NCBI GenBank assembly: GCA_019242065.1
Contig: JAFAWJ010000880.1
Span: 1 to 6,554, forward strand
Origin: Chloroflexota bacterium
Lineage (GTDB): Bacteria; Chloroflexota; UBA6077; CF-72
DNA length: 6,554 nucleotides
Direction: 5' to 3'
Position numbers and translations under genes: made by a program. The notes beneath the pieces were generated by a model, which saw only the letters and a program-made list of their open reading frames with translations, did no database searches and was not told the DNA's origin. Each line of letters begins with the position of its first letter. The first letter of the stretch is position 1. Below, in pieces: positions 3,815-6,554 of the stretch.

Positions 3815-3818
<4 letters not shown>

Positions 3819-5020
3819 GGGGACTGATACCTCGATAAGAATTCGTCTTGAAGATCGATGAGGTAGTCCCCGCGAACCGCCTCGCGGATCTGGCGCATTA
3901 GCTCCAGGATGAAGTGCAGGTTGTGCAGGCTCGCCAGCGTGTATGCCAGCAGCTCGTTGGCCGCGAACAGGTGCCGCAGGTAGCCCCGCGAAAACCCCGT
4001 GCGGCAGGTATAGCAGCCGCACGCCGCGTCGATCGGCCCCGCATCTTCGGCAAACTCGGGCCGCGTCACGTGGAGCCTCCCCATCGGCGTATACAGCACC
4101 CCATGCCGCCCCAGGCGTGTCGGCGACACGCAGTCGAACTGATCCACCCCCCGCGCCACACAGGAGAACAGGTCCTCGGGCTCGCCAATCCCCAGCAGAT
4201 GCCGTGGCCACTCGGCCGGCAAGCGCGGGAACGACCAGTCCAGCACCGCGTGCATGTCCGCCTTGGAGCGTCCCAGCGAGCCACCAATCGCCGCGCCGTC
4301 AAACGGCAGCGAGCCGATGAACGCCGCGCTGGCCGACCGCAAGTCGTCAAAGGCGCCGCCCTGCACGATCCCGTACAGCGCCTGGTCCGACCGGGTGCGC
4401 GCCGCCAGGCACCGCGCCGCCCAACGATGCGTCCGCTCCATCGCCTCGCGCGTGTAGTCGGCGTCGTGCAGCGGCGAGGTCGGCTCGTCGAACGCCAGCA
4501 CGATGTCCGCGCCGAGCATCTCCTGGGTTGCCATCGACACCTCTGGGGTCAACCGCTGTCGCGAGCCGTCGATGTGTGACGTGAACGTCGCACCGTCCTC
4601 GTCGACTTTGACCAGTCGGGCCGCCTGACCTCGTGGTCGACGACCGGTATCGGGCACGTCGTCGCCGGGAAACATGCCGATCTGCTTGCCGACCCCGTGC
4701 TCGATGCCCGAGCCAAGGGAAAAGACCTGGAACCCGCCACTGTCGGTGACGATCGGGCCATCCCAGCCCATGAAGCGGTGCAGCCCACCCAGATGACCCA
4801 CGACGTCCGCGCCAGGCCGCAGGAACAGGTGGTAGGTATTGGCCAGCAGCACGCCGGCGCCGAGGTCGCGCAGCTCGTTGGGCGTGATGCCTTTGACCGT
4901 GCCGGCGGTCCCGACGACACAAAAAAAGGGCGTGTCGATCGGCCCGTGCGGGGTGTGCAGCACGCCAGCCCGAGCCGGGCCGTCCTTCGCCTGGTGAGTC
5001 AGCTCGAATCGAACGCTCAG
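3815..5020 (-). CDS. tgt: Queuine/preQ1 tRNA-guanine transglycosylase
   Basis: Tgt exchanges guanine-34 of GUN-anticodon tRNAs for a 7-deazaguanine in the queuosine pathway. In the 401-residue reading, Asp93 in TDSGGFQ, Asp178 in VLAFDE, Gln220 in YGIVQGG and the nucleophile Asp296 in DQFDCVSPTR are present. So is the zinc site CGCYTC (Cys334, Cys336, Cys339) with the later His in LASLHNLH. The first ATG/GTG/TTG in frame is GTG at 4963, but family homology begins 19 codons earlier (VRFELTHQAKDGPARAG). No ATG, GTG or TTG exists between 4963 and the in-frame stop at 5069-5071. The CTG at 5020 sits exactly where the family Met is expected and overlaps the anti-sigma stop as CTGA, so I call it the start. 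Two oddities are an insertion of about 30 residues after VFSLGSG and a pocket loop GGSLG in place of the usual GGLAVGE. It is the last gene of the sigma/anti-sigma operon. Confidence 0.92.
3819..3871. terminator. Interrupted stem-loop right after the fumC stop; possible 3'-end element
   Basis: The base after the fumC TAA begins GGGGACT (3819-3825), which pairs perfectly with AGTCCCC (3865-3871). Inside it ACCTC (3829-3833) pairs with GAGGT (3860-3864), GAT (3834-3836) with ATC (3854-3856), and AAGA (3837-3840) with TCTT (3846-3849) around an ATTCG loop. That makes about 19 pairs, broken by small bulges. No T-run follows on either strand, so it is not a canonical intrinsic terminator. It lies inside the last codons of tgt. 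It could define or protect the fumC mRNA 3' end, or act in both directions. Confidence 0.35.
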
Positions 5021-5571
5021 GGCAGCTGCACGCCGCTGGCCGCGAGGCGGCGGCCGATCAGCCCGTTTTCAGAGATCAGCCAACCAGCCATCCCAACCAG
5101 TAACCACAGCCCCAGGCTCTGGAAGTCGATCGAGATGTTGCCGAGGTACGCCACCGCCGGCGAGGCGGCCACCAGCTCCATGGCGTACGCCACATCCCCC
5201 ACAACCGGCTGAAACGCCGACAGCCAGCCAAAGATCTGCCAGCTCGCCAGGGCCAACATGACCGCGGCCAGCCCCTGCACGGCGATCATTTGCGGTCGCT
5301 GCGCCAGCCAGGTGCTGAGCTCGGGTACACGCACTCGCTGCCAGAGGGTCTGGCGTACGGGCAGACCCGCTTCCAGGACAAGCTGCGAGAGCCGGAACTG
5401 CAGCTCCGCGGGTGGCACGACGACCACGGTCGTGCTCAGGATTGCGTCCACGCGTGCCAGGCCGCGCGCCATGTGGCCGCAGCCGGCGCACTCTCGCACG
5501 TGCGCGTCGAGCTCGGCGTCGGCCCAGGGCTCCTGAGCCAGCAATCTGTCGACGACGTCTACGCAGTCCAC
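5017..5571 (-). CDS. Membrane anti-sigma factor with zinc-finger (zf-HC2/ZAS) domain
   Basis: A 184-residue protein with a cytoplasmic N-terminal zinc-type anti-sigma domain: Cys3, then HVRECAGC giving the H24-x3-C28-x2-C31 pattern of ZAS proteins. These domains bind ECF sigma factors and keep them from RNA polymerase. A linker (about 40-92) leads to a hydrophobic helix at about 93-118, a short extracytoplasmic loop of some 30 residues, and a second helix at about 152-168, followed by a short basic tail. The expected topology is both ends inside. There is no large external sensor domain. The start is GTG at 5571, with GAGGA six bases upstream; it overlaps the sigma gene by 13 bp, the usual arrangement for cognate sigma/anti-sigma pairs. 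The TGA stop shares CTGA with the proposed tgt start. Assignment as anti-sigma is strong; the signal it senses is unknown. Confidence 0.88.
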   Translation of the reverse strand: MDCVDVVDRLLAQEPWADAELDAHVRECAGCGHMARGLARVDAILSTTVVVVPPAELQFRLSQLVLEAGLPVRQTLWQRVRVPELSTWLAQRPQMIAVQGLAAVMLALASWQIFGWLSAFQPVVGDVAYAMELVAASPAVAYLGNISIDFQSLGLWLLVGMAGWLISENGLIGRRLAASGVQLP

Positions 5572-6164
5572 GACTGTTCCTCGGCCGGATTGCTGAGAAC
5601 CAGCGCCAGCCGCTCCTTGCCGCGCCGTATGTGACTTTTCACCGTGTTGAGCGGCAGGTGCATTGTCTCCGCAATGTCCTCGTAGCGCATATCTTCGAAG
5701 TAGTGCAGTGTGAGCGCAAGACGCTGGGCTGCCGGCAAATCGTTGAGCGCGGCGCGCACCTCGTCGGCCGATTCGCGCAGCGCAAGCTCTTGCTCGGGTT
5801 GCGTCCAGCGATCGCTGTCCGCGAGTCGCTCGCCGGTGGCCTGGGTCTCGTCACCGCCTCGCGCGCCGCCTGGCTCGTCGAGCGATTCCACTGGCCGACC
5901 TCGCCGCCGCAAACCATCCAGGCAGATGTTGGTCACGAGTCGATAGAGCCAGGTCGTGAACTTGGTTTCGGCGCGATAGGTACCCAGCGATCGCAGGAGG
6001 CGGATGAACGCTTCCTGGGTCATGTCGGCCGCGTCGGCTGGGTTGTGCATGAGACTCATCGCGATGCTGTACACGTACGTTTGTTGACTCTGAACCAGCG
6101 CCGACAGGGCCTCGGGGTCACCGGCCTGCGCTCGTTGGACGAGTGCAGGGCTCGGTTCGGCCAT
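5559..6164 (-). CDS. ECF-subfamily RNA polymerase sigma factor
   Basis: A 201-residue sigma-70 family protein of the ECF (group 4) type with only regions 2 and 4. Region 2 covers about residues 10-90, with the core-binding stretch DAADMTQEAFIRLLRSL (44-60) and the -10 recognition part FTTWLYRLVTNICLDGLRR (69-87). A charged, probably flexible linker at about 90-127 is longer than in many ECFs. Region 4 (about 128-188) has ALNDLPAAQRLALTLHYFED followed by the helix-turn-helix around YEDIAETMHLPLNTVKSHIRR, which reads the -35 element. The start is ATG at 6164, with AGGTGAGG just upstream. It heads an operon with the anti-sigma factor and tgt. A GCAAC-N17-CGTC promoter 21 bases upstream has the ECF form, so positive autoregulation is likely. 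The linker has no recognisable extra domain. Confidence 0.95.
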   Translation of the reverse strand: MAEPSPALVQRAQAGDPEALSALVQSQQTYVYSIAMSLMHNPADAADMTQEAFIRLLRSLGTYRAETKFTTWLYRLVTNICLDGLRRRGRPVESLDEPGGARGGDETQATGERLADSDRWTQPEQELALRESADEVRAALNDLPAAQRLALTLHYFEDMRYEDIAETMHLPLNTVKSHIRRGKERLALVLSNPAEEQSWTA

Positions 6165-6184
6165 GCCTCACCTGGCCCACATAC

Positions 6185-6210
6185 GACGCACGTGAGCCGG
6201 AACAAGTTGC
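6185..6210 (-). promoter_or_regulatory. ECF-type promoter of the sigma/anti-sigma/tgt operon
   Basis: Minus-strand GCAAC (6210-6206), a 17-base spacer, then CGTC (6188-6185). An AAC-containing -35 and a CGTC/CGTA -10 at this distance are the hallmark of many ECF sigma factors. Transcription would start near 6176-6179, giving a leader of only about 12-15 bases that just includes the AGGTGAGG ribosome site. The upstream position relative to an ECF gene suggests autoregulation. Binding by this particular sigma factor is inferred. Confidence 0.55.
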
Positions 6211-6217
6211 GTGCAAC
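6206..6217. repeat. Small palindrome GTTGC-GT-GCAAC joining two -35 elements
   Basis: Two five-base inverted arms separated by GT. Each arm is the GCAAC of one of the two divergent ECF-type promoters, so the -35 boxes lie back to back on opposite strands. The symmetry is explained by the promoter pair and need not be a separate repressor operator. Confidence 0.6.
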
Positions 6218-6238
6218 AAGTGGCGACTGTCTGACGTC
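6213..6238 (+). promoter_or_regulatory. ECF-type promoter of the PspC-domain gene
   Basis: Plus-strand GCAAC (6213-6217), a 17-base spacer, then CGTC (6235-6238). The two elements and spacing are identical to those facing the sigma gene. Transcription would start near 6245, leaving a leader of about 75 bases that contains a stem-loop before the ribosome binding site. It suggests that the PspC-domain gene belongs to the regulon of the neighbouring sigma factor. Confidence 0.55.
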
Positions 6239-6260
6239 CCATCGAACACGAGACGATACT
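6231..6260 (+). promoter_or_regulatory. Weak housekeeping-type promoter candidate for the PspC-domain gene
   Basis: CTGACG (6231-6236) and GATACT (6255-6260) are separated by 18 bases, each matching four of six bases of the TTGACA/TATAAT consensus. It overlaps the ECF-type -10 and could give a basal level of expression. Matches this weak can arise by chance. Confidence 0.2.
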
Positions 6261-6263
6261 GCA

Positions 6264-6304
6264 CGTCCGGCCGTCGCGGCGATATGTCGCCAGTGGCCGG
6301 AACG
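6264..6304 (+). other. Two-part stem-loop in the leader of the PspC-domain gene
   Basis: An outer stem pairs TCCGGCC (6266-6272) with GGCCGGA (6295-6301), extendable by CG/CG across a one-base bulge. An inner stem pairs GGCGA (6278-6282) with TCGCC (6287-6291) around a TATG loop. The structure ends five bases before the GGAGGAG ribosome site (6309-6315). No T-run follows, so it is not an obvious terminator. It may affect mRNA stability or translation. Confidence 0.35.
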
Positions 6305-6321
6305 ATTCGGAGGAGCGTGCA

Positions 6322-6554
6322 ATGGCCGACTATCCACCCACACCCCCGTCGCCGCCCCCCGCGGCGCCACCACCGCCGTACTACCCCCCGTACAGCCCGC
6401 CACCGGCCCAGCGCCGGCTGGTCCGCAGCAGCCGCGAGCGCATGTGGGCGGGCGTCGCCGGCGGCATCGCCGAATACGTCGACCTGGATCCTTCGCTGGT
6501 GCGGCTGCTGTGGGTGCTGGCTACGGTGGTCACGGGCGGCCTGGCCGTGCCCGT
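6322..6554 (+). CDS. PspC-domain membrane protein with polyproline N-terminus (partial)
   Basis: The first 77 codons are in the window and the gene runs off the right edge. Residues 1-30 are a proline/tyrosine-rich tail, with 16 prolines including runs at 11-13, 16-19 and 26-28. The PspC domain follows: RRLVRSSRERMWAGVAGGIA and then EYVDLDPSLVRLLWVLATVV, with the family's GVxGGIAEYxxxDPxxVRLxWV pattern leading into the first membrane helix. PspC proteins are inner-membrane proteins of the phage-shock/envelope-stress response; PspC domains also occur in many less characterised membrane proteins. The ATG at 6322 has a perfect GGAGGAG six bases upstream. It is divergent to the ECF sigma gene and shares a symmetric promoter region with it, which supports a role in envelope stress. 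The missing C-terminus prevents telling a short PspC from a larger multidomain protein. Confidence 0.9.
   Translation, partial: MADYPPTPPSPPPAAPPPPYYPPYSPPPAQRRLVRSSRERMWAGVAGGIAEYVDLDPSLVRLLWVLATVVTGGLAVP

Follow-up and report, generated by a model that had tools for sequence, protein, structure and literature searches.

The relevant sections of the SigW literature name yvlA to yvlD of Bacillus subtilis as core genes of this ECF factor and list pspA as a secondary SigW-dependent gene (PMC3498285). YvlC is described as homologous to PspC and YvlB as belonging to the DUF4097 proteins, and in the same account the phage shock response of E. coli (pspABCDE) uses PspF together with sigma-54 (PMC9239133). 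The original criteria for ECF systems, which have since been narrowed, are given as AAC in the -35 element, CGT in the -10 element, an anti-sigma gene alongside and positive autoregulation (PMC8103513), and Hx3Cx2C is given as the motif of class I zinc-type anti-sigma factors (PMC7406223). According to Ravi and co-workers, PspC/Toastrack neighbourhoods have links to sigma factors, which the passages concerned state in general terms only (PMC11237479). In the literature consulted we found no paper on the regulon described here; the 2021 re-classification of ECF factors may already list the group and its motif.

The DNA analysed, called the window in the following, is a stretch of 6554 bp from a Chloroflexota bacterium. 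It carries an ECF sigma gene and a divergent pspC gene, which are separated by a spacer of 157 bp (6165-6321). The following features were assigned:

5017..5571, minus strand, probable membrane-bound zinc-type (Hx3Cx2C) anti-sigma factor, 184 aa (invariant H/C residues, hydrophobic segment)
5559..6164, minus strand, ECF sigma factor, 201 aa (Pfam Sigma70_r2 and r4_2 above cut-off)
6185..6188, minus strand, -10 element CGTC (CGTCGTA) of the putative sigma-gene promoter (direct reading, pattern search)
6206..6210, minus strand, -35 element GCAAC of the putative sigma-gene promoter (direct reading, pattern search)
6213..6217, plus strand, -35 element GCAAC of the putative pspC promoter (direct reading, pattern search)
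6235..6238, plus strand, -10 element CGTC (CGTCCCA) of the putative pspC promoter (direct reading, pattern search)
6244..6261, plus strand, conserved element GAACACGAGACGATACTG at the predicted 5' end of the pspC transcript (alignment of L001-L003)
6322..6554, plus strand, first 77 codons of pspC, truncated at the end of the window (PF04024, E 7.8e-16)

Direct reading and a pattern search both gave GCAAC-N17-CGTC on the minus strand (6210-6185) and on the plus strand (6213-6238), with 17 nt between GCAAC and CGTC in either copy and with the two -35 boxes 2 bp apart (GTTGC-GT-GCAAC). A preliminary description of the window had reported a motif with identical elements and spacing on both strands and two bases between the -35 boxes, and it was re-read exactly so. 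Both copies have the ECF form, with AAC in the -35 and CGT in the -10 element, and both carry an A as the third base after CGTC. They are the only two matches in the whole window, where 0.17 are expected from dinucleotide shuffles, and two or more matches occurred in 1 of 200 such shuffles. When the spacer alone was shuffled 20000 times in the same way, the motif was found on either strand in 95 cases and on both strands in none; together with the conservation in relatives given below, this excludes chance, which the preliminary description had considered an unlikely origin. The sigma-gene transcript is predicted to start at about 6177 with a leader of about 13 nt, and the pspC transcript at about 6246 with a leader of about 76 nt. 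A direct repeat, AACAAGTTGCG / AACAAGTGGCG, at 6201-6225 overlaps both -35 boxes and their flanks.

The flanking genes had already been named as those of an ECF sigma factor and a PspC protein, and Pfam domains confirm both. The sigma factor is furthermore above the cut-off of the NCBIfam sigma70-ECF superfamily model; its best NCBIfam model is SigW, at 129.3 bits against an equivalog cut-off of 209, and it is thus not a SigW equivalog by that test. Its start codon is supported by a conserved N-terminus. The reading frame that follows overlaps the end of the sigma gene by 13 nt, so the candidate anti-sigma factor is encoded together with its ECF factor. In this protein, H24, C28 and C31 of Hx3Cx2C do not vary across the 40 homologs that were aligned out of 120 listed, and one hydrophobic segment was located after the motif by script. 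There was no Pfam match, and a comparison with PDB profiles gave RsiW as the only plausible match, weak (E 0.2) and in the right place. The structure model, inspected for the helical ASDI fold of class I anti-sigma factors, had a mean pLDDT of 63.7, i.e. low confidence, with residues 1-70 helical at block pLDDT values of 78-92, and this low-confidence model found no fold match in the PDB. Among 55 loci the script found Hx3Cx2C after the sigma gene at 30, including all 11 pairs of divergent sigma and pspC genes; at the other 25 it is lacking or was missed. Taken together, the gene after the sigma gene probably encodes a membrane-bound zinc-type anti-sigma factor.

When species genomes were scanned, four loci of Chloroflexota (L001-L004) were found whose sigma gene has 93, 90, 85 and 65-66% identity, and both promoters, each with the 17-nt spacer, are found at all four. 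In an alignment of the window with L001-L003 both -35 boxes, both -10 boxes and the pspC leader element are conserved, and in L003 the two -35 boxes are 26 bases further apart. Additionally, 400 Chloroflexota genomes were searched at E <=1e-33, with 8 candidates scored in most genomes, and a relative of the sigma factor was found in at least 54 of them. A divergent PspC gene, detected by tblastn with the PspC domain of the window, lies beside the sigma gene in 10 of these 54. The pspC-facing GCAAC-N17-CGTC is exact in all 11 pairs (10 relatives and the window) and the sigma-facing one in 10 of the 11, the exception being GAAAC-N17-CGTC at L043, so that the spacing of 17 nt is kept in both directions in every pair. 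The gap that separates the -35 boxes was calculated by hand from the coordinates of the pairs and is 2 bp in the window, L001 and L002, -2 in L004, 13 in L046, 19 in L023, 28 in L003, 31 in L041, 45 in L045, 46 in L043 and 113 in L042, i.e. at most 2 bp in four pairs and 13 to 113 bp in the other seven. Since the 17-nt spacer is kept while this gap varies, it is each single promoter that is conserved, and not the distance from one to the other. Loss of the motifs from orthologous spacers had been named as the observation that would speak against the promoter reading; all 10 relatives that have the pair have retained the motifs.

The exact sigma-facing motif was present within 300 nt upstream in 50 of the 54 relatives, where shuffles gave 0.125 on average. 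This includes 41 of the 44 relatives without a detected divergent pspC, where the three exceptions are CGTA in place of CGTC (L022), a 16-nt spacer (L060) and no motif at all (L062). Sigma relatives that carry the motif range from 48 to 93% identity, and L062, the weakest match at 38%, may be a paralog. At none of the same 44 loci was an exact motif facing the opposite way found within 300 nt, the scan at L044 being limited to about 215 nt by the end of the contig. In 21 of these genomes the lack of a divergent pspC is based on tblastn with the PspC domain of the window, and in the remaining 23 the positions of the PspC genes agree with it. The A at the third base after CGTC was seen in the logos of all 79 pspC promoters and in 37 of 53 sigma promoters.

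PspC domains were searched in 23 of the 44 genomes without the pair, giving 78 matches, all of which were examined and none of which adjoins the sigma gene. An exact GCAAC-N17-CGTC was found within 450 nt upstream of the domain in 66 of the 78 genes (shuffle mean 0.18). The 12 misses comprise eight genes with a 16-nt spacer, two with CGTA, one with GAAAC and one without any form of the motif (L138), i.e. 11 of the 78 differ in one element. Counting sense matches at spacings of 8 to 27 nt gave 67 sites for N17, 8 for N16 and at most 3 for any other value, and the antisense N17 form occurred once upstream of these genes. In the ten genomes with the pair, 13 of 16 PspC genes have the exact motif, namely the 10 divergent ones and 3 of 6 elsewhere; the remaining three (L177, L188, L189) have no motif in any form. 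Combined, 79 of 94 PspC genes carry it exactly in 33 genomes with an ortholog of the sigma factor, and by promoter motif PspC genes would belong to this ECF factor as they do to SigW. The eight PspC genes with the 16-nt spacer (L091, L116, L118, L122, L128, L130, L136, L139) look like one paralog group by domain sequence, the shift being uniform within that group. L138, L177, L188 and L189, with PspC open frames of 80 to 161 aa, may be a kind of PspC outside this control.

As a control we used 23 genomes of the phylum in which no ortholog of the sigma factor was found, 16 of them with PspC, giving 21 genes, and the exact motif was present at none of the 21. Seventeen of these genomes (18 of the 21 genes) came from a class search (E <=1e-27) in which every candidate was scored, and six from the phylum search, where in five of them the absence holds among the candidates scored. 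Comparison of the two sets thus ties the motif at PspC genes to the presence of the sigma factor. One control genome (G034) has GCAAC-N16-CGTA before both of its PspC genes (L165, L174), which suggests a diverged ECF factor with a shifted motif or an ortholog outside the candidates scored. Two further control PspC genes show related strings: GCAAC-N16-CGTC 260 nt upstream of L159, and GGAAC-N17-CGTA at L173.

PspA and DUF4097 were searched in 29 genomes with an ortholog. PspA was found in 26 of them, as 34 matches of which 30 loci were examined, and the exact motif was present at none of the 30, so that the pspA part of the SigW regulon has no counterpart among them. GCAAC-N16/17-CGTA occurs upstream of four of the 30 (L229, L237, L239, L240), three times at 148-157 nt, and a weaker or different ECF control of PspA is possible. 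DUF4097 was found in 18 of the same 29 genomes; five of the 25 matches were second hits in the same frame and were dropped. The 900 nt upstream of the domain contain the exact motif in 12 of the 20 DUF4097/Toastrack genes examined, and these are sharply divided between the genome groups: the motif precedes 11 of the 12 genes from genomes where the pair is absent and 1 of the 8 from genomes that have it (G001, at 746 nt). Because of this split, membership of Toastrack is proposed for the genomes without the pair and not for the clade of the window. One of the misses (L262) had only 214 nt of scannable sequence.

Genome-wide pattern counts gave little information on the regulon, since the bare pattern is too short and is barely above its reversed control. 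TGCAACWW-N15-CGTC had 15 sites in G001-G004 against 5 for the reversed control, five of the 15 being at the sigma/pspC locus, and a similar pattern had 22 sites against 15 in G176. Comparison of 32 genome-wide sites with frames called by script placed 25 inside a frame; the test is blunt, as three PspC promoters (L196, L202, L211) were also scored inside frames. Four sites stand before plausible membrane or VWA proteins and are regarded as leads (L068, L072, L205, L207; L072 was also flagged as lying inside a frame). Small membrane proteins in G001-G002 and a VWA protein in G176 are suggested as members by position and are likewise leads. When three 120-residue pieces were compared with Pfam, the VWA domain alone was clear; the L207 piece gave no DUF4097 match because it was N-terminal, and DUF4097 was located further along the L207 gene (judged to be the same gene by position and a length of 338 aa).

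Since the same promoter precedes both the sigma gene and the majority of the PspC genes studied, a single sigma factor appears to activate itself together with PspC genes. The two motifs of the window are very probably independent promoters of the ECF factor encoded beside them, which would be autoregulated, controlled by an anti-sigma factor and directed at PspC as its core target. What the comparison shows is the motif, its spacing and conservation, its occurrence at PspC genes and its absence from them where the sigma factor was not found; the course that we infer is as follows. The membrane-anchored Hx3Cx2C anti-sigma factor would keep the sigma factor inactive until an envelope signal releases it, whereupon RNA polymerase with this sigma would bind GCAAC-N17-CGTC, which in every pspC promoter studied is followed by an A at the third base. 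The sigma-facing promoter would drive the operon of sigma and anti-sigma factor, i.e. positive autoregulation, and the other would drive pspC, which is divergent here and elsewhere on the chromosome in other genomes. Sigma factor and PspC would rise together once the sigma is freed. Counted against this reading are the A found in only 37 of 53 sigma promoters, the four PspC genes without a motif in genomes bearing an ortholog (L138, L177, L188, L189), L062, the genome-wide counts barely above the reversed control, the 25 of 55 loci where the script found no Hx3Cx2C, and the weak model of the anti-sigma factor.

Other explanations of the motif pair were weighed against the same data. Chance matches in a GC-rich spacer could be considered since the motif has only 9 bases, with 0.17 matches expected in the window, but this practically negligible possibility is refuted by the absence of both copies from all 20000 spacer shuffles and by the conservation in relatives. 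GTTGC-GT-GCAAC could also be read as the palindromic operator of a dimeric regulator with incidental CGTC matches, and the window, L001 and L002 do share a palindrome with the same 2-bp centre. This was rejected as highly improbable, since the half-sites drift apart (-2 to +113 bp) while each retains CGTC at exactly 17 nt, and since single copies precede PspC genes elsewhere, with the antisense N17 form in one case only. Less remote, though still improbable, is that the promoters are real and are read by another ECF sigma of the same cell, the adjacent sigma factor being only a target. Cross-recognition among ECF factors is well known, and each of G001-G004 has one or more additional ECF-like factors. 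The motif was, however, found at none of the paralogous ECF genes of these genomes (0 of 4 examined, of 5 matches), it precedes this sigma factor's own gene in 50 of 54 relatives, and it is absent from all 21 PspC genes where no ortholog was found.

Independent promoters read by the adjacent sigma factor remain the preferred reading, and one possible addition to it comes from the preliminary description, which had proposed that, with a gap of only 2 bp, the sigma operon and the pspC gene may compete. Polymerase binding would then be exclusive in the window and its close kin, so that sigma and pspC would share the output. Polymerase footprints would overlap at a gap of 2 bp, and four of the 11 pairs have a gap of at most 2 bp. 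Gaps of 13 to 113 bp in the other seven show that mutual exclusion is no conserved trait of the arrangement, and we consider the addition unlikely; exclusion may occur in the four close pairs. The competition idea is thus not supported as a conserved property, given gaps from -2 to +113 bp over 11 pairs. The promoter reading of the same description, divergent ECF promoters with one for each gene, is well supported: the 10 relatives with the pair, the shuffles and the PspC genes elsewhere all agree with it.

Our best reading is that the arrangement resembles SigW acting on yvlABCD, without PspA. As in that system, an ECF factor with an anti-sigma factor is predicted to control a PspC gene and, in one group of genomes, a DUF4097/Toastrack gene, and the likeness extends to SigW as the best NCBIfam model of the sigma factor and to RsiW as the weak PDB profile match (E 0.2) of its neighbour. 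SigW has TGAAAC as its -35 element, in contrast to GCAAC here. Further differences are the score below the equivalog cut-off, the position of pspC, which is divergent from the sigma gene or present in several copies away from it, and the PspA genes, which carry the exact motif in 0 of 30 cases whereas pspA of B. subtilis is SigW-dependent. With ECF operons in general, the locus shares the AAC/CGT promoter, the anti-sigma gene beside the sigma gene and, as we infer, positive autoregulation; unlike them, it has a second, back-to-back copy of the promoter that would serve a PspC gene, and the further predicted targets that tested positive are PspC genes elsewhere and, for one genome group, Toastrack genes. 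The E. coli Psp system likewise has a PspC-domain membrane protein, presumably under envelope-stress control in both, but an ECF promoter replaces PspF and sigma-54 here, and the PspA genes do not have that promoter.

The main result is a predicted ECF regulon centred on PspC, in those Chloroflexota genomes where this sigma factor is encoded. An ECF factor on which we found no study, and which occurs in at least 54 of 400 Chloroflexota genomes, thereby obtains a likely role, a predicted set of core targets and a prediction of the PspC paralogs that would be induced together with it. It also suggests that the ECF control of PspC and Toastrack known from Bacillus SigW exists in a distant phylum, minus PspA. 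We regard it as somewhat better than an even chance that the Psp response is split in the Chloroflexota with this sigma factor, with the ECF factor commanding nearly all PspC genes, of which a genome often has several paralogs, and, in one group, Toastrack, with PspA controlled elsewhere, and with PspC from the divergent promoter perhaps feeding back on the anti-sigma factor.

Two minor observations concern the transcripts. A sigma-70 promoter in the conserved pspC leader, with GATACT as the -10 element, was checked by eye, and no conserved -35 was seen. The leader element GAACACGAGACGATACTG was not found in G004 at up to 2 mismatches; under the same limit it is present as a single copy, at the sigma/pspC locus, in each of G001-G003, and it is kept in L001-L003 with one base changed in L002. 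On the other side, tgt (tRNA-guanine transglycosylase, 3815-4963) lies on the same strand about 53 bp downstream of the anti-sigma gene and could be transcribed by read-through from the sigma promoter.
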